Shown here: in pieces, positions 1,411 through 63,061 of the stretch
Position numbering within the stretch: position 1 is the stretch's first letter
How the letters are laid out: each line of letters opens with the position of its first letter
Translations under genes and position numbers: made by a program
Source: Roseobacter insulae
GTDB taxonomy: Bacteria > Pseudomonadota > Alphaproteobacteria > Rhodobacterales > Rhodobacteraceae
Length of the DNA stretch: 64,000 bases
Direction of reading: 5' to 3'
Assembly (NCBI RefSeq): GCF_019375555.1
Contig: NZ_JAHXDN010000002.1
Location: 868,001 to 932,000, forward strand
The notes under the pieces: generated by a model
Database searches by the model: none
Told to the model about the DNA's origin: nothing
The model's input: only the letters and a program-made list of their open reading frames with translations

Positions 1411-3237
1411 CTAGCCCAGAACACCGCGACCCTGCATCAGGGCGGATTGCATCGTCTTGATTACCACGAAGGCATCCCGCAGATGGCTGCGCTCAAAGTC
1501 CGAAAGCGTGGCCGGTGGCAGGAAGTTGTTCGGCGGCTTGCCCTGTTTGATCCGCCTTGCCTGATGGTCCAGCCGGGTCTGGGCAACCAGATCATAGGCG
1601 TCGAGCAGGTCACGTCCACCGCTTTGGCTGAGCACATCGCTGGCCATCGCCGCTTCCAGCCGGGCGCGGGTGTTGACCACATCGAGCTTTCCCTGCAACG
1701 CATACATGCGCCCCAGATCGACAACCGGAACAACTCCGTTGAGTTTCAGATCGATAGTGTGACGATGCTCGCCCGACCGGATGGTCGCAAGACCTTTCAG
1801 AAGCCCAAGCGGCGTTGCATGGGTCAGTGCGTTGCTGGCCATGTGCGCGGTAAAGATCGAATTGGCCGCCGCCGCCTCCAGCGTTTCCATCTGCAACCCG
1901 TCAAAGAGCGTGGCATCGCCGCCGATGGGGCGCAGATCGAACATAACCGACGCCAGCATCTGGGCTTCCTTGCTGGGGCTTTTGATCCACGACTGGAAAT
2001 AGTCGCGCCAGACGGAAACCGGCTGGCACCATCGCGGGTTCGTCGCCATCATGTCGCCGGGGCAGTATACGTATCCGCAGGCATCCAGCCCGTCGCTGAC
2101 GAACTCTGCGAAGGGGCCGAAATAGGCCAGCGCGTCAGCGTCAAGACCACCCTCGAGGATCAGGCAATTGTCCTGATCGGACACGCCTGTCTGCTCCTGC
2201 CGGCCCTGCGAGCCACAGGCCAGCCAGACATAACGCCCCGGCGGCGGCCCGAATGTCTCTTCGGCCAGATGCAGCAGGCGGCGTGTGACCACATCGGCAA
2301 TATCGGTGATCAGGCGGGTCACAACGTCGTGCCGGTTGCCGGCGGCCACCAGCTGCACCAGCAGGTTGGGAATGCGTTTGGTGACGTCGCACAGGGCTTC
2401 GGCCGTCTCGGCGCGGGCTGCTTCGGCCACGAAGCCGGCGGTGTTGGCGGCCTGAAACCGGGTGAGATCGGTCTGTGTGACAATGCCGATCACCTTGTCT
2501 GCCGCGACGACCGGCAAGTGACCCAGCCGATGCTCCATCATCAGATGCAATACGTCGGACCCGATGGCGGAGGGGGGCAGCGTGCGTGGGTGCCGCGTCA
2601 TGATCGCACTGACAGGTGTGTCATGCACAAGCCCTTCCGCCAACGCCTTGCCAGAGAGATCGCGCAGGGTGAGAATGCCGACAAGGCTGCCGTTTTCGGT
2701 AACGCAAAGGCAGGAGATGTGACGGTCGCGCATCAGTTGTGCAGCCGCCTGAATCGTCAGTTGCGGCCCGCAGGTCTGAGGGTCGGGTACCATCAGCGTT
2801 TCGACCCGGACGCGGGTCAGGTCAAAGGCCCGCAGCGCATCCGCCGCCGCATCCGGGCGGGAGCGGTCAAAGAAGCCGTGAAATACTTCATGTTCGGCGC
2901 GCAGCTTGTGAAAAAGATCGCCTGGCAGGCAGATCAGCCTGCTGGGCTCGGTCGCATGGGCAGAGGTGACGGCCAGACCGTCCTGCAAGAGCCCGCGCTC
3001 TCCAAACGAGTTCTGGCGTCGCAGCAGGGAGATTTCCTTGCCATGCCCATCGCTGACCGACACCTCGCCGTCAACGATGATGTAGAGCCCGTCCATCTTT
3101 GCACCCAGGGTGTAGACAGTGCCCCCCGCGGGGAAGTCGCAGCAGGTGATCTGACCGGCGACATCCCGCAGTACGGCGTCGGGCAGCCGATTGTAGGGAT
3201 GTAGCTGTGAAAGAAAGGCGTGGGCTGTCTCGGTCAT
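1411..3237 (-). CDS. cNMP-binding / CBS pair / DUF294 nucleotidyltransferase-like regulator
   Basis: 608 residues with three recognisable parts: an N-terminal cyclic-nucleotide-binding fold (about 10-120, with G79-E80-R81 in the phosphate-cassette position), a CBS-domain pair (about 150-270), and a DUF294 nucleotidyltransferase-like domain in which G342-S-Q-G345-R and D354-Q-D356 match the GS...DxD signature of the GlnD/Pol-beta superfamily, followed by a helical DUF294 C-terminal part. Family knowledge: these proteins are thought to be signal transducers and sit beside acetate-type SSS symporters. It probably senses nucleotides and controls the neighbouring transporter; the target is unknown. 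It is separated from the symporter gene by a hairpin (3295-3328). Confidence 0.9.
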   Translation of the reverse strand: MTETAHAFLSQLHPYNRLPDAVLRDVAGQITCCDFPAGGTVYTLGAKMDGLYIIVDGEVSVSDGHGKEISLLRRQNSFGERGLLQDGLAVTSAHATEPSRLICLPGDLFHKLRAEHEVFHGFFDRSRPDAAADALRAFDLTRVRVETLMVPDPQTCGPQLTIQAAAQLMRDRHISCLCVTENGSLVGILTLRDLSGKALAEGLVHDTPVSAIMTRHPRTLPPSAIGSDVLHLMMEHRLGHLPVVAADKVIGIVTQTDLTRFQAANTAGFVAEAARAETAEALCDVTKRIPNLLVQLVAAGNRHDVVTRLITDIADVVTRRLLHLAEETFGPPPGRYVWLACGSQGRQEQTGVSDQDNCLILEGGLDADALAYFGPFAEFVSDGLDACGYVYCPGDMMATNPRWCQPVSVWRDYFQSWIKSPSKEAQMLASVMFDLRPIGGDATLFDGLQMETLEAAAANSIFTAHMASNALTHATPLGLLKGLATIRSGEHRHTIDLKLNGVVPVVDLGRMYALQGKLDVVNTRARLEAAMASDVLSQSGGRDLLDAYDLVAQTRLDHQARRIKQGKPPNNFLPPATLSDFERSHLRDAFVVIKTMQSALMQGRGVLG

Positions 3238-50530: not shown

Positions 50531-53500
50531 ATGGGGGTGCGGCAAATCGAAAAGACGATCTTTCAATTCATTTGGAGGTATTCGAAGCGTGACCAACTGA
50601 TCCTTTTGGTCTTCACCTGTGCTTTGTTTCCATTTCTGTATCTGACGCTGGAATTGCCCAAGCGGATCATCAACGACGCGATCGGCGCGGCAACAGGGCA
50701 GGTCGATGTCTTCGGCGTGACGTTCAGCCAGGTCGGTCTTCTGGCGCTTTTATGCGCCGCCTTCCTGACGTCCGTGCTGGTGCATGGCCTGCTGAAAATG
50801 CGGATCAACACCATGAAGGGTATCCTGTCCGAACGGATGCTGCGACGGCTGCGCTATACCCTGATCTCGCGCATGCTGCGGTTTCCCAAACCGTATTTTC
50901 GCAGGACCTCACAGGGCGAACTCGTCGCCATGATCACCGGAGAGACCGAGCCCATGGGCGGGTTGATGGGGGATGCGCTGACGCAGCCGGTGCTGCAGGC
51001 GGGCCAGATGATCACCATACTGGTGTTTCTTTTCTTGCAAAGCCTGTGGTTCGGGCTTGCCGCCATTGCATTGATCCCGTTGCAGGCGTGGTTGATCCCC
51101 AAGCTCCAGCGACAGATCAACCTCATGAACAAGGAGCGGATCAAGGAGGTCCGGCGACTGGCAGCGCTCATCGGCGAAAGCGCGCAAGGTGCAAGCGATC
51201 TGCGCATCCATGGCGGATGGCGCTACCGCCTGTCGATGATCAGCGCACGGCTCGGCGTGGTCTTCGGCATCCGGCTGAAAATCTACAAGAAGAAATTCTT
51301 CATGAAGTTCATCAATAACTTCATCACCCAGCTTACGCCATTTTTCTTCTTTTCCGTAGGGGGTTATCTGGTGATCCAGGGGGCGGTCTCGCTGGGCGCC
51401 CTGGTGGCGGCGCTCGCGGCCTACAAGGATCTCAGCTCACCCTGGAAGGAGTTACTGGCCTATTACAACCAATCGCAGGACATGAGCCTGCGTTGGGAAA
51501 CAGTGGTCGAAAAATTCTCTCCCGGCAATGTGATCGATGCGCGGTTGATGGACGGCGCGCCGGCGGAAGTGCCAAGCCTTGCCGGCACGGTGGAGTTGCA
51601 GGACATTACGGTCACCGACAGCGATGGCAACCCGGTGCTAGAAAACATCTCTGCCCAGTTTGGCAAGGGGAGCGTGGTGGCGGTGGACGCGCCCAGCGAA
51701 GAGGACCGGCAGGCACTGGCTGACGTGCTGACCCGCGAGGTCATGCCCTCCAGCGGCCAGGTCGTGATCGCGGGGCATGCCCTGGCCGGCCTGCATCAGT
51801 CGGTTATTGCGTCGCGCATCGGACACGCCGACACCCGCCCCATGTTGTTTCAGGGCACTTTCGGCGACAACACGATGATGCCGCTCAAGCAAAACCCGCA
51901 GGGAGATGTCACGCCAGAAGTGCAGGCCGCGGCGCAGGAGGCCGCGGCGGCTGGCAACAGTGCCGACCCGGTCGAGGCGGAGTGGCTCGATCCGGCCTTG
52001 GCCGGGGTGCAGGACAGGGCGGAGGTTCAGGCGTGGTGGCTGAGCCTGCTCGACACGATGGGCACGGGAGGGGCGTTGTATCGCCGGTCGCTGGACCAGA
52101 AAATCGACCTGGAAACACGGCCCGACCTTGCCAGGCGCCTGATCGCCGCGCGGCCCAAGGTCTGGGAGGCCGTGGTGGCGGCAGATCTTGCACGCCACGT
52201 CCACCGGTTTGACCCGGCGCTCTACAATCCGGCGCTGCCGGTGATCGGCAACCTGTTTTTCGCGACGATGCGCCGCCCTGTGACGCAACAGGAGTTGGCG
52301 ACACAGACCGATCTCTTCGACCTGATGCGGAATCTCGGTCTGGAGGCGGGGTTACTGGAGCTGTCGCGCGATGTGATCGAGCTGTTGAACCAGATTTTCG
52401 GCACCGATGGCACGGAGCATCCGCTGTTTCGGAAACTGGGCCTTGATCCGGCGGTGTTCGAACGGTCGGTCCAGCTTCTTACCTCTCGCACTGGCACCCT
52501 GAGCGATGCCGACAAGGCGATGCTGATGACCGTGCCGTTGCGCATTTCGGCAGAGCAAATCGGCCCGGCCTTTTCCAACGAGATGCGCGAAACGATCCTC
52601 GGTCTGCGGGCGGCAAACGGGTTGCAATTCCGCGAAGGGCTCAACGATCTCTATGCGCCGCTCGATGCGGGGGAAATTGCGCCGGGCCTCTCGGTTCTCG
52701 AAAACGCGCTCTTTGGCAAGATTTCCGACAGTGCGGGTGCGCGCGCCGACGATCTGCGCAAGCTTGTGTCCGAGGTTCTGGAGCGTGAAGGGTTAAAGCC
52801 CGAGGTTATGGCGTTGATGTATGACTTTGCCCTCGCGTCGGGCGGCAGCAATCTGCCAGCGGTTTTCACCGAACCCCTCGCGATCAGTCGCGCGATCATC
52901 AAACAGCCGGATGTGCTGATCCTCGATCAGGTGCTGTCCGGTTACGATCCGAAAATCTGGCGGGAAGTGAATGCCAGGCTCCGGGCGCTGTTGCCGCAGA
53001 CCACGATGATCTATCTGGGTGACGGTTTCGACAACCCCGATCAGTTCGATGCTTTCCTGGAGATCAGGCAGGGGCGCATGGTATCCGCCGACAAGGCCGC
53101 CGAGGATGCTGATGACAGTGCCGCGAGTGCAGATTTACTGCGCAAAGTCAGGGCGTTGGAGTCAACAACTCTTTTCTCCGGCATGGGCCGGAAACAGCTC
53201 CGGCTGCTCGCTTTCGGGGCGAAATGGTTTTCTGCACAGGCCGGAGACGTCATCTTTAACAAGGATGATGATCCGCGCGATGGTGCATATATGATCCTGT
53301 CCGGAGCTGCCGAGTTGTTTGATCCCGGAGACGGGCAGGAAGAAAAGCACATCGCGATGGTCGGACCCGGTACGCTGGTGGGCGAGTTGGGCCTGATCCG
53401 GAATGTGCCGCGCGCTCTGACCATGCGGGCCGAAACAGATGTGGAGGCCCTGCGTCTTGGTGCGGACGAATTTCTGGCGGTTGTCGAGAACGATGCGGCC

Positions 53501-53545
53501 ACGTCCTTCAAACTGTTGCAGGTGGTTGCCGGGTACACCGCATAA
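50531..53545 (+). CDS. ABC-exporter homologue with degenerate ATPase, large NBD insertion and C-terminal cNMP-binding domain
   Basis: 1004 residues. A six-helix ABC exporter membrane domain (about 20-310) is followed by an NBD-like domain whose motifs are all altered: the Walker A place reads A387-P-S-E-E-D-R-Q394 (usual GPSGxGKS), the Q-loop Gln is T435, the signature is A769-S-G-G-S-N774, Walker B ends I-L-D-Q800 (catalytic Glu changed to Gln), and the H-loop His is missing (Y-L-G-D-G-F). Between Q-loop (about 440) and signature (769) about 270 residues exceed the normal helical subdomain. Residues about 880-1000 form a cyclic-nucleotide-binding domain with G951-E-L-G-L and P960-R961-A. ATP hydrolysis is unlikely; a sensor or receptor role is inferred. 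Start could be the GTG at 50537. Confidence 0.85.
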   Translation: MGVRQIEKTIFQFIWRYSKRDQLILLVFTCALFPFLYLTLELPKRIINDAIGAATGQVDVFGVTFSQVGLLALLCAAFLTSVLVHGLLKMRINTMKGILSERMLRRLRYTLISRMLRFPKPYFRRTSQGELVAMITGETEPMGGLMGDALTQPVLQAGQMITILVFLFLQSLWFGLAAIALIPLQAWLIPKLQRQINLMNKERIKEVRRLAALIGESAQGASDLRIHGGWRYRLSMISARLGVVFGIRLKIYKKKFFMKFINNFITQLTPFFFFSVGGYLVIQGAVSLGALVAALAAYKDLSSPWKELLAYYNQSQDMSLRWETVVEKFSPGNVIDARLMDGAPAEVPSLAGTVELQDITVTDSDGNPVLENISAQFGKGSVVAVDAPSEEDRQALADVLTREVMPSSGQVVIAGHALAGLHQSVIASRIGHADTRPMLFQGTFGDNTMMPLKQNPQGDVTPEVQAAAQEAAAAGNSADPVEAEWLDPALAGVQDRAEVQAWWLSLLDTMGTGGALYRRSLDQKIDLETRPDLARRLIAARPKVWEAVVAADLARHVHRFDPALYNPALPVIGNLFFATMRRPVTQQELATQTDLFDLMRNLGLEAGLLELSRDVIELLNQIFGTDGTEHPLFRKLGLDPAVFERSVQLLTSRTGTLSDADKAMLMTVPLRISAEQIGPAFSNEMRETILGLRAANGLQFREGLNDLYAPLDAGEIAPGLSVLENALFGKISDSAGARADDLRKLVSEVLEREGLKPEVMALMYDFALASGGSNLPAVFTEPLAISRAIIKQPDVLILDQVLSGYDPKIWREVNARLRALLPQTTMIYLGDGFDNPDQFDAFLEIRQGRMVSADKAAEDADDSAASADLLRKVRALESTTLFSGMGRKQLRLLAFGAKWFSAQAGDVIFNKDDDPRDGAYMILSGAAELFDPGDGQEEKHIAMVGPGTLVGELGLIRNVPRALTMRAETDVEALRLGADEFLAVVENDAATSFKLLQVVAGYTA

Positions 53546-53768: not shown

Positions 53769-55013
53769 ATGCACAAACCATTGCATATTTTAGCCTGGAC
53801 CATGCTTTGCTGCAGTTTTGGCCAGTCCGCCGTCGCAGAACGGCTGCGCCTATACATTGACGCCGATTACTCCATTGCACGACCCGCGGCAGATGCAATC
53901 GAGCTTGGTGTGAGATCAGCCTTGTCAGAGGTTGATTATGCGATTGGTGACATCGAGCTGGAAGTGGTGCCGATGGATCACCGTGCCAACTCGAAACGCT
54001 CCATGGCGAACCTGCGCGCGTTCGAAAACGATCCGCAGGCGCTGGCCGTGATCGGGGGGGTGCATTCCCCTCCCTATCTGACCAACCGGGAACACATAAA
54101 CGACCGTGGGCTCCTGTTGCTTTTGCCGTGGTCCGCAGCGGGGCCGATTACCCGCCCGGAAGCAGGCCAGGTGAACTGGATTTTCAGGCTGTCTGTGGAC
54201 GACACCAAGGCCGGGCCCTTTCTCGTAAACCACGTCCTGAACAACAGGCGGTGCCAGCGCACGGCGCTTTTACTGGTGGATACCGGGTGGGGGCGTGCCA
54301 ATCGCGTGACGATGCTCGAAGCTTTCCGGGAGGCCAAGGCGAACGAACCGGTTGTGTTCACGTTTCCCACCGCCCTTGGCAGCGCCAGCGCGCGGACGCT
54401 GGCGGAAAACGTGGCGGGCATGGACGTTGATTGCGCGATCATGTTGTCAAACGCACAGGAGGGGGCTCTCTTGGTCAACGAGCTTCACGAGCTTGCCCCG
54501 CACATCAGGCTGGTGAGCCATTGGGGAATCGTGTCGGGCGATTTCCGGGATATGGTGTCGCACACCGTCCGGTCTGATCTTCAAATCGAAGTCTTGCAGA
54601 CATGCGGTCTGAAGGTTGAACGCGACGGAAGTACGGTTCTCGCGCAAGCCCTGCGCAGCGCCAGCACGCAGGCGCATCCGTTTGAGCGGTTGTCGGACGT
54701 CCATGCCTCCACCGGCTTTGTTCACAGCTATGATCTTGTAAAGATCCTTTTGGCCGCAATCGCTCAGACTTCCGGGTCGGATGCGTGGAAGCACGGCTCC
54801 ATCTCGGAACGCCGCAACCTGCTGCGCGTCGCGCTGGAGGATCTTGCGCGCCCCGTTGAAGGCATTCTCAAGACATATAACCGTCCGTTTGGTCCTTTTT
54901 CAGACTCCGCACCCGACGCGCATGAGGCGCTGAACGGTCAGGATCTGTGTGTTGCCTCGTTTGCGGAGTCCGGGCGATTGGTCTTGTCGGAGATGGCGGA
55001 TCACGATTCCTGA
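53769..55013 (+). CDS. Periplasmic ligand-binding protein, type I (branched-chain amino-acid receptor family)
   Basis: 414 residues with a signal peptide (about 1-23, ...QSAVA) and the Peripla_BP_6 fold: early beta-strand L-R-L-Y-I-D-A-D-Y-S, A-I-E-L-G-V-R-S-A-L, V-I-G-G-V-H-S, and the second-lobe segment A-L-L-L-V-D-T-G-W-G. GGGAG precedes the start. No canonical permease or ATPase genes of the LIV type are near. Its stop is followed immediately by the start of the PAS-GGDEF-EAL gene, so I infer it is a periplasmic sensor partner for that protein (compare other binding-protein-controlled GGDEF/EAL systems). Confidence 0.85.
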   Translation: MHKPLHILAWTMLCCSFGQSAVAERLRLYIDADYSIARPAADAIELGVRSALSEVDYAIGDIELEVVPMDHRANSKRSMANLRAFENDPQALAVIGGVHSPPYLTNREHINDRGLLLLLPWSAAGPITRPEAGQVNWIFRLSVDDTKAGPFLVNHVLNNRRCQRTALLLVDTGWGRANRVTMLEAFREAKANEPVVFTFPTALGSASARTLAENVAGMDVDCAIMLSNAQEGALLVNELHELAPHIRLVSHWGIVSGDFRDMVSHTVRSDLQIEVLQTCGLKVERDGSTVLAQALRSASTQAHPFERLSDVHASTGFVHSYDLVKILLAAIAQTSGSDAWKHGSISERRNLLRVALEDLARPVEGILKTYNRPFGPFSDSAPDAHEALNGQDLCVASFAESGRLVLSEMADHDS

Positions 55014-57599
55014 ATGCGTCACGCCGTTTCCATAAACAAGGTTTTCTGGTTGCTGCTCGCCTGCAGCTTTGCCTTAGCGCTGACCACTGCGGCGACCGCC
55101 GTGTGGGTGACCGCCAAACCCTTTCTGATGGAGACCCACAAGCGTGCCGTGATCAGCCGCGCCAAACAGGAGGCCGCGCGGGTGTATTCCATTCTCGATC
55201 CCAGCGCGTCCCTCACTGTCTTTCTGGCGTCAGAACCTTCTCTGGTCTCTTACGTCATAGGCGATGTCCATCACGATGATGGTTTCATTGACAGGCTTGA
55301 GGGCGTGGTTGTGCCCGAGAATGTCTCGGAGTTCTTCATTTTTGACTTTGAAGGCACGCCCATGAGTTTTCACCGGGTGTCATCGCGAACCCATTCACTG
55401 GAGACAACCAGCGCCGTGCGCGATCTCGCGGCAGAAGTCCTGCTGACCCAGCAGGTGACCACGCGCACCGTAGACAGATTTCGAGATGCCGCAACCCGGT
55501 CACAGGACATTCTGATCGCGGCGCCAATCCTGAACAGGGGGTTTGTCGAAGGTGTTCTGACGTCTGTTCTCAGTGTCGACCTCGGGCAGGAACGCACCGC
55601 ACGGGGGCAGATAGAAACGCTCGCGCGTATCGTGAATGTGAATGACGCGTGGTCGCAACACACCGCTGGCGAAAGCGCCATAACCGTGCCGATCGGATCG
55701 ACCGGGCTGTCCCTGGTTCTGAACTCGCAGTCAAGCCTGTTCCAGACGATCGGGCAGGAACTGGTGACCAAGGCAATCCTGGCCGTATCTGCCGCGCTGT
55801 TGCTGCCCTTTGGGATTTTCGGGTGGCTTGGTCGTCAGACAATTCTGCGCCCTCACGCCGAAGTCGAAAGATCGCGCAACAAACTCAGGGAACAACAAAA
55901 AGAACTGAGCGAACTGGCCGCCATCGCGCGCAAGGCGGAGGAAGCCATCGTCATCACCGATCTCGACACGCGGATTGTCTGGCATAACCCGGCTTTCGAA
56001 CGCATATCCGGCCATTCGGCGGACGCCATCAAGGGGAGACTGCCAGCTGACCTGCTGCAAGGTCCGGACACGGACCCACAAACCCGCGCGGACATTCGGG
56101 CGGCCTTGGCAGCGCGTGAGCCGATTTCAGTTGAACTGATCAATTACCGTTCCGACGAGGAGGAATATTGGGTCAGGCTCAGTATTTCGACCTTGTTCGA
56201 CGATCAGGGGCAGGCCTATGGGTTCATGGCCATTTCAAGCGACGTCTCCGAGCAGAAGCACAATGAAAAGAACCTGATTGCAACAACCTCGGCGATGGAA
56301 TGGCAGGCGCTGCACGATGAGCTGACCGGGTTGCCGAACCGTCGCTGTTTCAATGGCACCTTCGATAAACTCTGCGCGGAATATGACGCAAGCTCACCCC
56401 TTGCGATCATCCGTATCGATCTTGATCACTTCAAGAATGTCAATGACACGATGGGTCATGAAGCGGGTGACAAAGTGTTGTGTCAGGTATCTCAGGTTCT
56501 GCGGGACGAAATTTCCCAGGACGACATTCCGGTGCGGATCGGGGGCGATGAATTCATTGTCCTGCTTGGGAAAAACGGGACCCTGAAAAACGCCCAGAAA
56601 CTGGCGCAAAACATGTTGAGGCGTGTGTCAGAACCCATTGAATACGAGGGAAAATCTCTGCGGGTAGGGGCAAGCTTCGGTATCGCGTCGTCGGAGTGCA
56701 ATCTGGTGGCGACCGAAGAACTGGTGCGGGCGGCGGACGCGGCGCTTTACATCGCCAAGGAGCGGGGCCGGAACCAGGTGATCACCTACGGCGCTGAAGA
56801 GCATAAAAAGGTCGTCGCGGTCCGCGATACCGCCGAACTCATTCGGCTTGGCCTTGAGCGCGGGGAATTCGTGCCCTTCTACCAACCGCAAATTGACGCG
56901 AAGACGCATGATGTTGTGGGCGTCGAAGTCCTCGCCCGCTGGGTACAGCCGGACAAGGCGGTTATTCCGCCCTCGGGCTTTCTGGAGGTGGCGGAACAGC
57001 TGTCGATGCTGACCCTGCTTGACAGAATGGTAATGAAAAAGGCGCTGGACAACGTGGCGGAACTGGAGCGGGCGGGGACACCCCTGCCGAAAGTCTCCTT
57101 CAACGTCACCGCGGGGCGCCTCTCCGATCCCGATCTGCTTGTCGCCATTGACGAGAGAGATTTCACGAAAACCAAAGTCTCCTTCGAAATTCTCGAGTCG
57201 GTCTTTCTGGATGATCAGCCGGAATATCTGGATTTCACGCTGGATCTGCTGCGGGAAAAAGGTCTGCTGATCGAGATCGACGATTTCGGCTCCGGCCATG
57301 CCTCCATGATCAGCCTCATGCGGGTGCGGCCCGATGTGCTCAAGATCGATCAGCGGCTGGTCTACGGTGCGCCGCAAACTCAGGTGTGTCAGAACATGGT
57401 GCGTTCGATCATCGGCATCGCTGAATCCTTGCAGATTTCGGTCACCGCCGAAGGGGTCGAAACCTATATGCATGCTGACATGATGCAGTCGATGGGGTGC
57501 GCCACCCTGCAGGGCTTCCATTTTGCCGAACCGATGTCTTTTGAGGATCTGAAGCACTACATTGCCGGCACCCACCGGGCGCAACGGCAGGAAGTATAG
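55014..57599 (+). CDS. Membrane PAS-GGDEF-EAL protein (cyclic-di-GMP turnover)
   Basis: 861 residues. Membrane helix about 11-33, periplasmic domain about 35-250 (Cache-like), second helix about 253-272, PAS about 300-415, diguanylate cyclase about 430-590 with intact G510-G-D-E-F514, and EAL phosphodiesterase about 610-850. The EAL motif reads E638-V-L; other catalytic residues are present: N697, E725, D756-D757 and K777. The I-site RxxD five residues before GGDEF is absent. It may make, break or both. Translation starts directly after the binding-protein stop (TGAATG), so the pair is coupled. Confidence 0.93.
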   Translation: MRHAVSINKVFWLLLACSFALALTTAATAVWVTAKPFLMETHKRAVISRAKQEAARVYSILDPSASLTVFLASEPSLVSYVIGDVHHDDGFIDRLEGVVVPENVSEFFIFDFEGTPMSFHRVSSRTHSLETTSAVRDLAAEVLLTQQVTTRTVDRFRDAATRSQDILIAAPILNRGFVEGVLTSVLSVDLGQERTARGQIETLARIVNVNDAWSQHTAGESAITVPIGSTGLSLVLNSQSSLFQTIGQELVTKAILAVSAALLLPFGIFGWLGRQTILRPHAEVERSRNKLREQQKELSELAAIARKAEEAIVITDLDTRIVWHNPAFERISGHSADAIKGRLPADLLQGPDTDPQTRADIRAALAAREPISVELINYRSDEEEYWVRLSISTLFDDQGQAYGFMAISSDVSEQKHNEKNLIATTSAMEWQALHDELTGLPNRRCFNGTFDKLCAEYDASSPLAIIRIDLDHFKNVNDTMGHEAGDKVLCQVSQVLRDEISQDDIPVRIGGDEFIVLLGKNGTLKNAQKLAQNMLRRVSEPIEYEGKSLRVGASFGIASSECNLVATEELVRAADAALYIAKERGRNQVITYGAEEHKKVVAVRDTAELIRLGLERGEFVPFYQPQIDAKTHDVVGVEVLARWVQPDKAVIPPSGFLEVAEQLSMLTLLDRMVMKKALDNVAELERAGTPLPKVSFNVTAGRLSDPDLLVAIDERDFTKTKVSFEILESVFLDDQPEYLDFTLDLLREKGLLIEIDDFGSGHASMISLMRVRPDVLKIDQRLVYGAPQTQVCQNMVRSIIGIAESLQISVTAEGVETYMHADMMQSMGCATLQGFHFAEPMSFEDLKHYIAGTHRAQRQEV

Positions 57600-62326: not shown

Positions 62327-63061
62327 ATGATGAACATCGCAGCCAGTCCGCTCACCAAAAAGCTCTCTGCGTTCGTCGCACTGTCGGAGACGGAACTGGC
62401 CGTTCTGGAGCGTTTGCACCAGCGGCGGAAATCCTTCTCTGCAGGGCGCGACCTGGTTCACCAGGGCCAATCCGAACAGGCGGCATACATCCTGGCATCG
62501 GGCTGGGTCGTCTCCTACAAGATTCAGGCCGACGGATCGCGGCAAATCGTTGATTTTCAGATACCGGGGGATTTTCTGGGGCTTCGAAGCGTTCTGCTCC
62601 ACACGTCGGATCATGGCATCGAACCGCTTGTCGATATCGAAGCCGCGGAAGTCATGGCAAGCGATCTTCTTCAAGCCTTCGCTGAGACGCCGCGGCTCGC
62701 CACCGCCATTCTGTGGGCCGTGTCGCGCGACGAGGCGATGGTTGTCGAGCATCTCGTTGGGCTGGGGCGGCGCGATGCGGACGCGCGAATGGCGCATTTC
62801 CTGCTGGAACTTGGTGCGAGGCTGTCGCTCGTCGGGATGGGCAGCAAAGCCGGATATGCCTGTCCGCTTACGCAGTACCATCTGGCCGACGCATTGGGAC
62901 TAAGCGCTATCCACGTCAACCGCGTTCTGCGTAAGCTCAGAGAAGACGCGTTGGTCACCTTCCGAGACGGATTGGTGACATTTGACGATTATGGCCGCCT
63001 CATTGAACTGGCAGATTTTGATCCGGCCTATTTGGATCAGGCACGCCCCTTATTGCCTTGA
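62327..63061 (+). CDS. Crp/Fnr-family transcription regulator (HVNR type)
   Basis: 244 residues; two adjacent ATG codons follow GGGAGGGA. The cNMP-binding-like fold (about 15-130) lacks the four Fe-S cysteines of FNR (only one Cys), so it is not an oxygen-sensing FNR. The C-terminal HTH is T-Q-Y-H-L-A-D-A-L-G-L-S-A-I-H-V-N-R, the H-V-N-R recognition-helix variant common in rhizobia and methylotrophs rather than the FNR E-x-x-S-R. Its DNA target may therefore differ from a classical FNR box. Likely governs the surrounding stress genes. Confidence 0.92.
   Translation: MMNIAASPLTKKLSAFVALSETELAVLERLHQRRKSFSAGRDLVHQGQSEQAAYILASGWVVSYKIQADGSRQIVDFQIPGDFLGLRSVLLHTSDHGIEPLVDIEAAEVMASDLLQAFAETPRLATAILWAVSRDEAMVVEHLVGLGRRDADARMAHFLLELGARLSLVGMGSKAGYACPLTQYHLADALGLSAIHVNRVLRKLREDALVTFRDGLVTFDDYGRLIELADFDPAYLDQARPLLP

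Follow-up and report, generated by a model that had tools for sequence, protein, structure and literature searches.

Can a protein keep the build of an ATP-binding cassette (ABC) exporter after losing the motifs by which such exporters hydrolyze ATP, and what would it then do? The question is raised by an open reading frame (ORF) at positions 50531 to 53545 of the window, the 64,000-nucleotide stretch of the Roseobacter insulae genome analyzed here (contig NZ_JAHXDN010000002.1, positions 868,001 to 932,000). Encoded in a single chain are the membrane domain of an exporter, a nucleotide-binding domain (NBD) that lacks the canonical ATPase motifs and, at the C terminus, a domain of the cyclic-nucleotide-binding type (cNBD). 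The comparisons described below support a reading of the window protein, from its sequence, as a maintained pseudo-ATPase that is neither a pseudogene nor the product of a frame error. By descent it is an ABC exporter, yet it fails the catalytic definition of one. We refer to the protein and its relatives as the pseudo-ABC family.

Architecture and ATPase motifs of the window protein

In Pfam searches, the window protein matched ABC_membrane at residues 44 to 295 (E 3.4e-18) and cNMP_binding at residues 902 to 988 (E 3.7e-17; 62.5 bits against a cut-off of 27.5), with ABC_tran staying below threshold (16.1 versus 25 bits, E 0.018). The top NCBIfam model was MsbA (TIGR02203), at 133 bits far under its cut-off of 602. 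An AlphaFold model built with 68 sequences (mean predicted local distance difference test [pLDDT] 84.0, predicted template modeling score [pTM] 0.71) has, besides an NBD-like domain and a cNBD, the long membrane helices typical of exporters, and Foldseek matched this model to P-glycoprotein, TAP, TmrAB and MsbA chains with E values down to 2.4e-15. Compared with type IV ABC exporters (ABCB/MsbA-like), the window protein has the ABC_membrane domain and the exporter fold and lacks the canonical NBD motif set (Walker A GxxGxGK[ST], Q-loop Gln, LSGGQ, Walker B DE and H-loop His). Of the features of a cyclic-nucleotide-binding protein, it carries both the Pfam domain and the Glu and Arg of the phosphate-binding cassette. 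It falls outside the SLiPT proteins (SbmA/BacA), taken as an exporter-like membrane domain without an NBD, since an NBD-like domain is present. The principal features are as follows.

50531..53545, + strand: whole gene, pseudo-ABC exporter with C-terminal cNBD, 1004 amino acids (ORF; full length in 17 of the 18 further congeneric genomes)
50558..51520, + strand: exporter transmembrane domain, residues ~10-330 (Pfam ABC_membrane; AlphaFold model with long exporter-type helices; column conservation)
51689..51712, + strand: degenerate Walker A, APSEEDRQ, residues 387-394 (alignment)
51833..51835, + strand: Q-loop position, Gln replaced by Thr435 (alignment)
52853..52867, + strand: signature position, LSGGQ replaced by LPAVF, residues 775-779 (alignment)
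52913..52930, + strand: Walker B, VLILDQ, residues 795-800 (alignment)
53021..53023, + strand: H-loop position, His replaced by Asp831 (alignment)
53144..53530, + strand: predicted cNBD, residues ~872-1000 (Pfam cNMP_binding; PDB sequence matches 5d1i and PKA regulatory subunits)

The motifs were placed by an alignment of 164 relatives, the window protein included, with three ordinary exporters of the same class. Its input of 175 distinct matches was trimmed to the 164 of at least 850 amino acids, which dropped the membrane-only relatives, the fragment L003 and the split L093. Walker A reads VDAPSEEDRQAL in the window protein versus LVGPTGAGKSTI in the ordinary exporters, and Walker B reads LILDQ versus LLLDE, with Asp799 kept and the catalytic Glu replaced by Gln800. 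The core spacings (medians of 42 residues from Walker A to the Q-loop and 24 from the signature to Walker B) match those of the three ordinary exporters; the motif positions are therefore secure, and the losses are no alignment slip. Across the ORF, neither a canonical Walker A (GxxGxGK[ST]) nor [LFY]SGGQ occurs in any of the six frames.

Much of this had been proposed in an earlier reading made without searches. The coordinates, the frame and the architecture of a degraded-motif exporter joined to a cNBD were borne out by the ORF list, Pfam and the alignment, and the intact look of the membrane domain and of the cyclic-nucleotide-binding fold was recovered by ABC_membrane, cNMP_binding and the AlphaFold model. 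That sequence-only reading had also recognized the APSEEDRQ Walker A, the Thr in the Q-loop, the Gln for Glu in the ILDQ Walker B and the missing H-loop His, all of which the alignment confirmed. Its signature, ASGGSN, was misplaced, as the alignment sets LSGGQ on residues 775 to 779. A frame error restoring canonical motifs was looked for in all six frames, and none was found. Frame error and pseudogene were both ruled out by this result, by the intact ORF across the genus and by the purifying selection described below. Loss of the ATPase motifs is well supported by the alignment, and the window protein very probably no longer hydrolyzes ATP.

Conservation across the family points the same way. 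As a yardstick we took 30 MsbA-type exporters, one per genome, from 30 genomes that also hold a pseudo-ABC family member. These ORFs were chosen by a Walker A match, so that their 30/30 for this motif is uninformative; of the 30, 27 had LSGGQ, 26 a match to the Walker B pattern and 25 one to the H-loop pattern. The MsbA model cut-off was exceeded in only 6 of the 30 genomes, and the set is MsbA-type rather than proven MsbA. Within it, identity was higher in the NBD than in the membrane domain for 434 of 435 pairs (means of 64.7 versus 41.4%). The order was inverted in the pseudo-ABC family, whose members fall into a fused form, with the cNBD in the same chain, and an unfused form. In all 6786 fused pairs (70.5 versus 47.7%), a set rich in close relatives, the membrane domain exceeded the NBD core in identity, and the same inversion, weaker, was seen in 1003 of 1035 unfused pairs (56.2 versus 45.0%). 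Columns conserved in at least 95% of sequences numbered 75/323 in the membrane domain, 10/257 in the NBD core and 11/254 in an insert within the NBD for the 163 family members, as against 13/320 in the membrane domain and 73/230 in the NBD for the MsbA-type set. The polar membrane-domain residues N262, N263, E138 and E140 are among these columns.

Ratios of nonsynonymous to synonymous substitution (dN/dS) against five orthologues from the genus were 0.05 to 0.09 for the membrane domain, 0.02 to 0.12 for the cNBD and 0.10 to 0.19 for the NBD with its insert, with synonymous sites near saturation and two values not computable for that reason. The NBD is thus constrained and does not drift freely.

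The insert separates the Q-loop from the signature. The distance between them is 346 amino acids (median of 117 fused members) versus 56 in the three ordinary exporters, and therefore an insert of ~290 amino acids splits the NBD.

51896..52657, + strand: helical insert in the NBD, residues ~456-709 (Q-loop-to-signature distance; structure model)
52124..52369, + strand: internal repeat copy 1, approximate, mapped from the family profile (hhalign of family segments r2 versus r3)
52577..52822, + strand: internal repeat copy 2, approximate, mapped from the family profile (hhalign r2 versus r3)

Profiles of segments r2 and r3, made from the unfused rows, aligned with a probability of 98.5 (E 2.1e-15, 82 columns). 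The segment directly after the Q-loop shares with r2 and r3 only a short ENLLFG-like motif (probability 71 over 20 columns and 66 over 22 columns). By these profile comparisons there is one clear internal duplication, whose second copy is mapped as starting in the insert and stopping shortly ahead of the signature. A model of residues 436 to 775 reached a pLDDT of 90.4, and a Foldseek search of the PDB with the modeled insert gave nothing at E ≤ 0.001, its best E being 0.64.

Distribution of the family and decay of its motifs

Of 18 further genomes from the genus, 17 have the clade of the window gene, at 66 to 80% identity, full length and without inner stops. A paralogue at 50 to 52% identity to the window gene occurs in 18 of 18; the eighteenth genome (G009) has the paralogue only, the window-gene clade not being found there, and in G010 the paralogue match contains an in-frame TAG. 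The paralogue of R. insulae itself (L004:7974-11099) is 51% identical to the window gene, has Asp for the cassette Glu and is likewise degenerate in its ATPase motifs. In related genomes, the paralogue clade can adjoin genes for a CAAX protease, accD and folC.

At the level of the class, 131 of the 385 genomes sampled had a relative (E ≤ 1e-60). A phylum-wide sample gave a relative in 32 of 398 genomes, 31 of them within the class, and the single outsider, G524, matched in the membrane domain only. Four loci from gammaproteobacterial metagenome bins (L152, L155, L156 and L158) also match the family and may reflect mis-binning. Shorter membrane-domain relatives of 334 to 412 amino acids lack an NBD altogether: L053:5891-6895 in the R. 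insulae genome (G000:C17:70953-71816), L047:1547-2785, L050:6371-7609 and L048:6100-7284. From the resemblance of neighboring ORFs, we take the first to adjoin ATP-synthase subunits and the other three to lie near a multicopper oxidase and a TolC-like gene.

The 163 distinct aligned members divide into 117 whose chain includes the cNBD and 46 whose chain lacks it. All 46 unfused members are followed directly downstream, on the same strand and within 900 nt, by a cNBD ORF (phmmer E < 1e-3; gaps of -141 to 616 nt). A cNBD, as recognized by sequence, is linked to every member examined, in the chain or as the adjacent gene. In a membrane-domain tree of 86 family rows, the label "fused" requires two changes, and the only unfused row within the fused group, L042, sits on a long branch. 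Because no more than two changes are needed, a single fusion of exporter and cNBD is the likely origin; the tree, made by a quick method with 40 of the 117 fused rows, has many open forks and long outgroup branches and does not prove it. Alignments A3 and A6 hold 67 and 57 of 77 available loci.

Homologues with normal Walker motifs were looked for, this being one of the findings that would refute the sequence-only reading, and neither GxxGxGK[ST] nor LSGGQ occurred in any of the 163 aligned members. The motif counts for unfused sequences use 47 rows, which include L002, a cut copy of the R. insulae paralogue and itself fused; it was removed for the sets of 46. In these 47 rows, the first and the last Gly of Walker A are each kept in 45, the Lys position holds Lys in 30 and Arg in 17, and the Ser/Thr position holds Asp or Glu in 41. 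The Q-loop Gln remains in 12 and the signature Gln in 43, with the signature Gly pair mostly gone, and the Walker B Glu is present in 28 and the H-loop His in 22. Two unfused members tested exceed the Pfam ABC_tran cut-off (70.6 and 63.6 bits), which the window protein does not reach.

The 117 fused rows show deeper decay. Very few retain the Walker A Gly residues (5, 5 and 3 rows), and the Lys position holds Lys in 4 and Arg in 106, followed by Ser or Thr in 28. In Walker B, 73 rows retain the Asp and 3 the Glu that follows; the Q-loop Gln survives in a single row and the H-loop His in none. From these counts, the motifs look to have decayed in two steps, with a partial P-loop in the unfused form and further decay in the fused form. 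Loss of the canonical ATPase motifs is an old property of a whole alphaproteobacterial family.

Glycan-cluster neighborhood and cyclic-nucleotide context

Neighborhoods were sampled in 40 stretches from the class, out of the 131 genomes with a match, plus four others; a set of 92 Roseobacter-group loci came mostly from the best 80 matches listed. Glycosyltransferases of families GT4 or GT28 lie within 8 kb of 32 of the 38 unfused loci fetched with flanks, and at none of the six fused loci outside the Roseobacter group or the 92 loci within it. A frequent order has an upstream block on the opposite strand (DUF6585-like, deacetylase-like, GT28, histidine phosphatase, GT4, GT4, GT28), followed by the pseudo-ABC gene and the cNBD gene, with a methyltransferase in addition at 12 of the 38 unfused loci. 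The marker protein of this cluster matched no Pfam or NCBIfam model. It has invariant RDDD, HGxxH and PPWNR residues, from which we assume, by resemblance, that it is deacetylase-like. Across the 385 genomes of the class (marker E ≤ 1e-25), 112 hold both family and marker, 19 the family only, 4 the marker only and 250 neither (Fisher p 6e-71, not corrected for relatedness).

The R. insulae genome has the cluster, as GT28-GT4-GT4-GT28-deacetylase-like at L266:9020-15041 (contig C1), apart from both of its pseudo-ABC genes. Seven other fused-form genomes examined also contain the cluster glycosyltransferases apart from the fused gene; at one such locus, L270, the marker itself was found only in a separate marker search and not by inspection of the cluster. 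Among these cases, the fused gene closest to the cluster is that of G365, at ~22 kb. We lean, if only slightly, toward a functional link between the pseudo-ABC family and this cluster.

Named records show how the family is annotated at present. In Sinorhizobium medicae, the gene stands as "ABC transporter ATP-binding protein" and its cNBD neighbor as "Crp/Fnr family transcriptional regulator," beside three glycosyltransferases; Azospirillum is also among the named records with a family locus. A dipeptide-type ABC importer (ATPase, binding protein and permeases) occurs near the family gene or the glycan cluster in Azospirillum, S. medicae and others (L207, L208 and L270-L273).

The cNBD of the window protein is nearest by sequence to 5d1i, a solved "cyclic nucleotide-binding protein," and then near PKA regulatory subunits in the PDB. 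For a stand-alone cNBD partner, the best PDB sequence matches are 9ya0, 5d1i and PKA chains, and the domain is near those of PKA and PKG by sequence. Its phosphate-binding cassette was placed as follows.

53381..53419, + strand: phosphate-binding cassette GELGLIRNVPRAL, residues 951-963, with Glu952 and Arg961 (Glu/Arg kept in the nearest members)

Among members sharing at least 56% identity with the window protein, which is itself counted, all 51 have both the Glu and the Arg, as do all six fused members from outside the Roseobacter group. Of the 46 stand-alone partners, whose cassettes are GEIAILCDVPRTATV-like, 44 have the Glu and all have the Arg. The R. insulae genome contains seven class III cyclase matches and 14 cNBD matches, the window gene and its paralogue counted in. 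On this sequence evidence, the cNBD of the window protein probably binds a cyclic nucleotide. The sequence-only reading had suggested a pseudo-transporter serving as a second-messenger-responsive protein; the pseudo-ATPase part stands by sequence, and the cassette Glu and Arg together with the seven cyclase matches make the second-messenger part plausible.

Two more cNBD matches lie in the window, at ~2890-3135 (- strand) and 62429-62683 (+ strand), in open frames of 640 and 275 amino acids, and a class III cyclase match lies ~4.4 kb ahead of the window start. Directly downstream of the window gene, in tandem, are a Peripla_BP_6 gene (53769-55013) and a PAS-GGDEF-EAL gene (55014-57599), possibly a sensing pair. 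Both were considered as members of the system and rejected, as among the loci compared their clusters hold only the window and the nearest Roseobacter locus, L085. A defense system was also rejected. PADLOC gave a weak PycTIR match in the cNBD region of the window protein (E 6e-4) and, for one relative, matches to mad3 (E 8.5e-15) and mad8 (E 1e-5) within the NBD region, which we read as shared domain types.

Proposed mechanism, rival explanations and known systems

In our proposal, the window protein would be a membrane-embedded, non-hydrolyzing form of the type IV ABC exporter fold, probably a dimer as are other half-exporters. Its NBD, enlarged by the partly duplicated helical insert, would act as a cytoplasmic scaffold, and a cyclic nucleotide (most likely cyclic AMP) on the C-terminal cNBD, in place of an ATP cycle, would set the conformation of the membrane domain. 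Gating of this kind we hold at close to, though somewhat under, an even chance. Because most of the fetched unfused relatives have both genes adjacent, beside the glycan cluster, the likeliest role would be to let a glycan or glycolipid intermediate pass, to flip it or to license it, under control of the signal. In the Roseobacter branch, both parts would have become one chain, away from the cluster, and what remained of the nucleotide site would have been lost. Taken whole, with its ligand, gating and cargo, this cyclic-nucleotide-gated, non-hydrolyzing mechanism tied to envelope-glycan synthesis is tentative. In a broader version, Alphaproteobacteria would have remade an exporter of the ABC type into a membrane gate or flippase that serves an envelope-glycan pathway, is gated by cyclic nucleotide and works without ATP, much as CFTR and SUR do for gating and regulation in eukaryotes; the power domain would have become a duplication-enlarged scaffold, and control would have passed to a PKA-like sensor that was first a partner gene and later fused. 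This version, which would make the protein a bacterial analogue of CFTR and SUR, is rather unlikely to hold in all its parts.

Several observations weigh against the proposal. Unfused relatives retain much of the P-loop, the Walker B Glu and the signature Gln; these members may still bind ATP and turn it over slowly. Glycosyltransferases are absent within 8 kb of 6 of the 38 unfused loci, and no glycan-cluster gene lies near the family gene at any of the 92 Roseobacter-group loci, 18 of which have one flank shorter than 5 kb. The 19 genomes with the family and without the marker also count against it, as does a co-occurrence statistic that ignores phylogeny. Finally, 60 fused members 42 to 56% identical to the window protein, mostly of the paralogue clade, have the cassette Arg throughout and Asp for Glu in 47, and members with this change may have lost the ligand from their cNBD. 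The 51 nearest members and these 60 are identity bands and not tree clades: of the 13 rows with Glu in the lower band, at least 4 (L116, L119, L124 and L125) lie within the window-protein clade of the tree.

The same substitution would suit a cNBD that is a structural or protein-docking domain and not a nucleotide sensor, and many bacterial cNBDs have no known ligand. The Glu and Arg kept in all 51 nearest members and all six fused members outside the Roseobacter group, and the near-invariant pair in the PKA-like stand-alone partners, speak for sensing, and we consider a purely structural or docking role rather unlikely. Retained motifs in the unfused members could instead belong to an unconventional working ABC transporter, with an altered P-loop (K/R-D/E in the unfused form) and slow hydrolysis, or with an active half-transporter as partner; exporters with one degenerate site are known (available part of PMC12038006). 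In the window protein, however, the motifs of both half-sites are lost, and the R. insulae paralogue is degenerate too, so that pairing the two would restore no ATP site; an unlinked exporter half encoded elsewhere may nonetheless serve as partner. No recurring exporter half-gene was noticed among the neighbor clusters, which are annotated in part, and conservation is much weaker in the NBD than in the membrane domain. We consider a working transporter of this kind quite improbable.

Two further alternatives share the loss of ATP hydrolysis with our proposal and differ over what the membrane domain does. It might be a secondary transporter, proton-driven like SbmA, with the NBD-like and cNBD parts only regulatory. 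SbmA is proton-driven and structurally related to the ABC membrane domain (available part of PMC13316013), NBD-less membrane-domain relatives exist, one of them in the same genome, and the very strong conservation of the membrane domain includes the polar N262, N263, E138 and E140. Retention of a full NBD-like domain with exact core spacing, under purifying selection, makes this unlikely. Alternatively, the protein might transport nothing and, like SUR, hold or switch the glycosyltransferases or another membrane partner according to the cyclic-nucleotide level. Linkage to the GT4, GT28, histidine phosphatase and deacetylase-like genes, the marker co-occurrence and the loss of the energy-coupling motifs would all fit, but the membrane domain is stricter than in MsbA-type exporters (75/323 versus 13/320 columns), beyond expectation for a scaffold, and we regard a purely regulatory protein as an equally poor prospect.

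About one-third of the sampled genomes of the class carry a strictly kept exporter-fold relative that is annotated as an ABC transporter and whose aligned members lack canonical ATPase motifs. The series from a partial P-loop with a separate sensor to no P-loop with a fused sensor suggests a stepwise route by which an exporter may give up ATP, and what drives an exporter fold without ATP becomes a question testable by gene deletions. The family is also a candidate link between cyclic-nucleotide signaling and envelope-glycan synthesis. The sequence-only reading knew of no described family with this domain order: among the open-access literature matches listed, judged by titles and the starts of abstracts, none describes the pseudo-ABC family, although database records already carry domain-based names ("ABC transporter transmembrane domain-containing protein" and "cyclic nucleotide-binding domain-containing protein"). 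It had missed the ~290-amino-acid partly duplicated NBD insert, the frequent occurrence of the cNBD as a separate partner gene and the adjacency of unfused members to the glycan cluster. For the Sinorhizobium locus tags SMb20813, a homologue of msbA (PMC10945364), and SMb20811 (PMC6180224), the passages on them state no function; both tags are assigned to the family only tentatively, by gene order.

Among known systems, MsbA-type (type IV) exporters share with the window protein the membrane domain, the order and spacing of the NBD core and Foldseek similarity. They differ from it in that the window protein has lost the catalytic motifs and has the ~290-amino-acid insert, the cNBD and the inverted conservation. 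SbmA is not known to carry an NBD or a cNBD, and no SbmA/BacA-type Pfam model matched the window protein. The SLiPT proteins SbmA and BacA resemble it in using an ABC-exporter-like membrane fold without ATP (available part of PMC13316013), and heterodimeric exporters with one degenerate site resemble it in having such a site within an exporter fold (available part of PMC12038006). The heterodimers keep one working site per dimer, whereas the window protein and its paralogue are both without canonical motifs. SUR and CFTR are ABC exporter folds turned to regulation or gating; they are eukaryotic, still bind ATP and are not known to carry a cNBD. The cyclic-nucleotide-gated bacterial channels SthK and mll3241, which are among the PDB matches of the stand-alone partner, likewise combine a membrane protein with a cNBD, but the membrane domain is that of a channel in these proteins and that of an exporter in the pseudo-ABC family.

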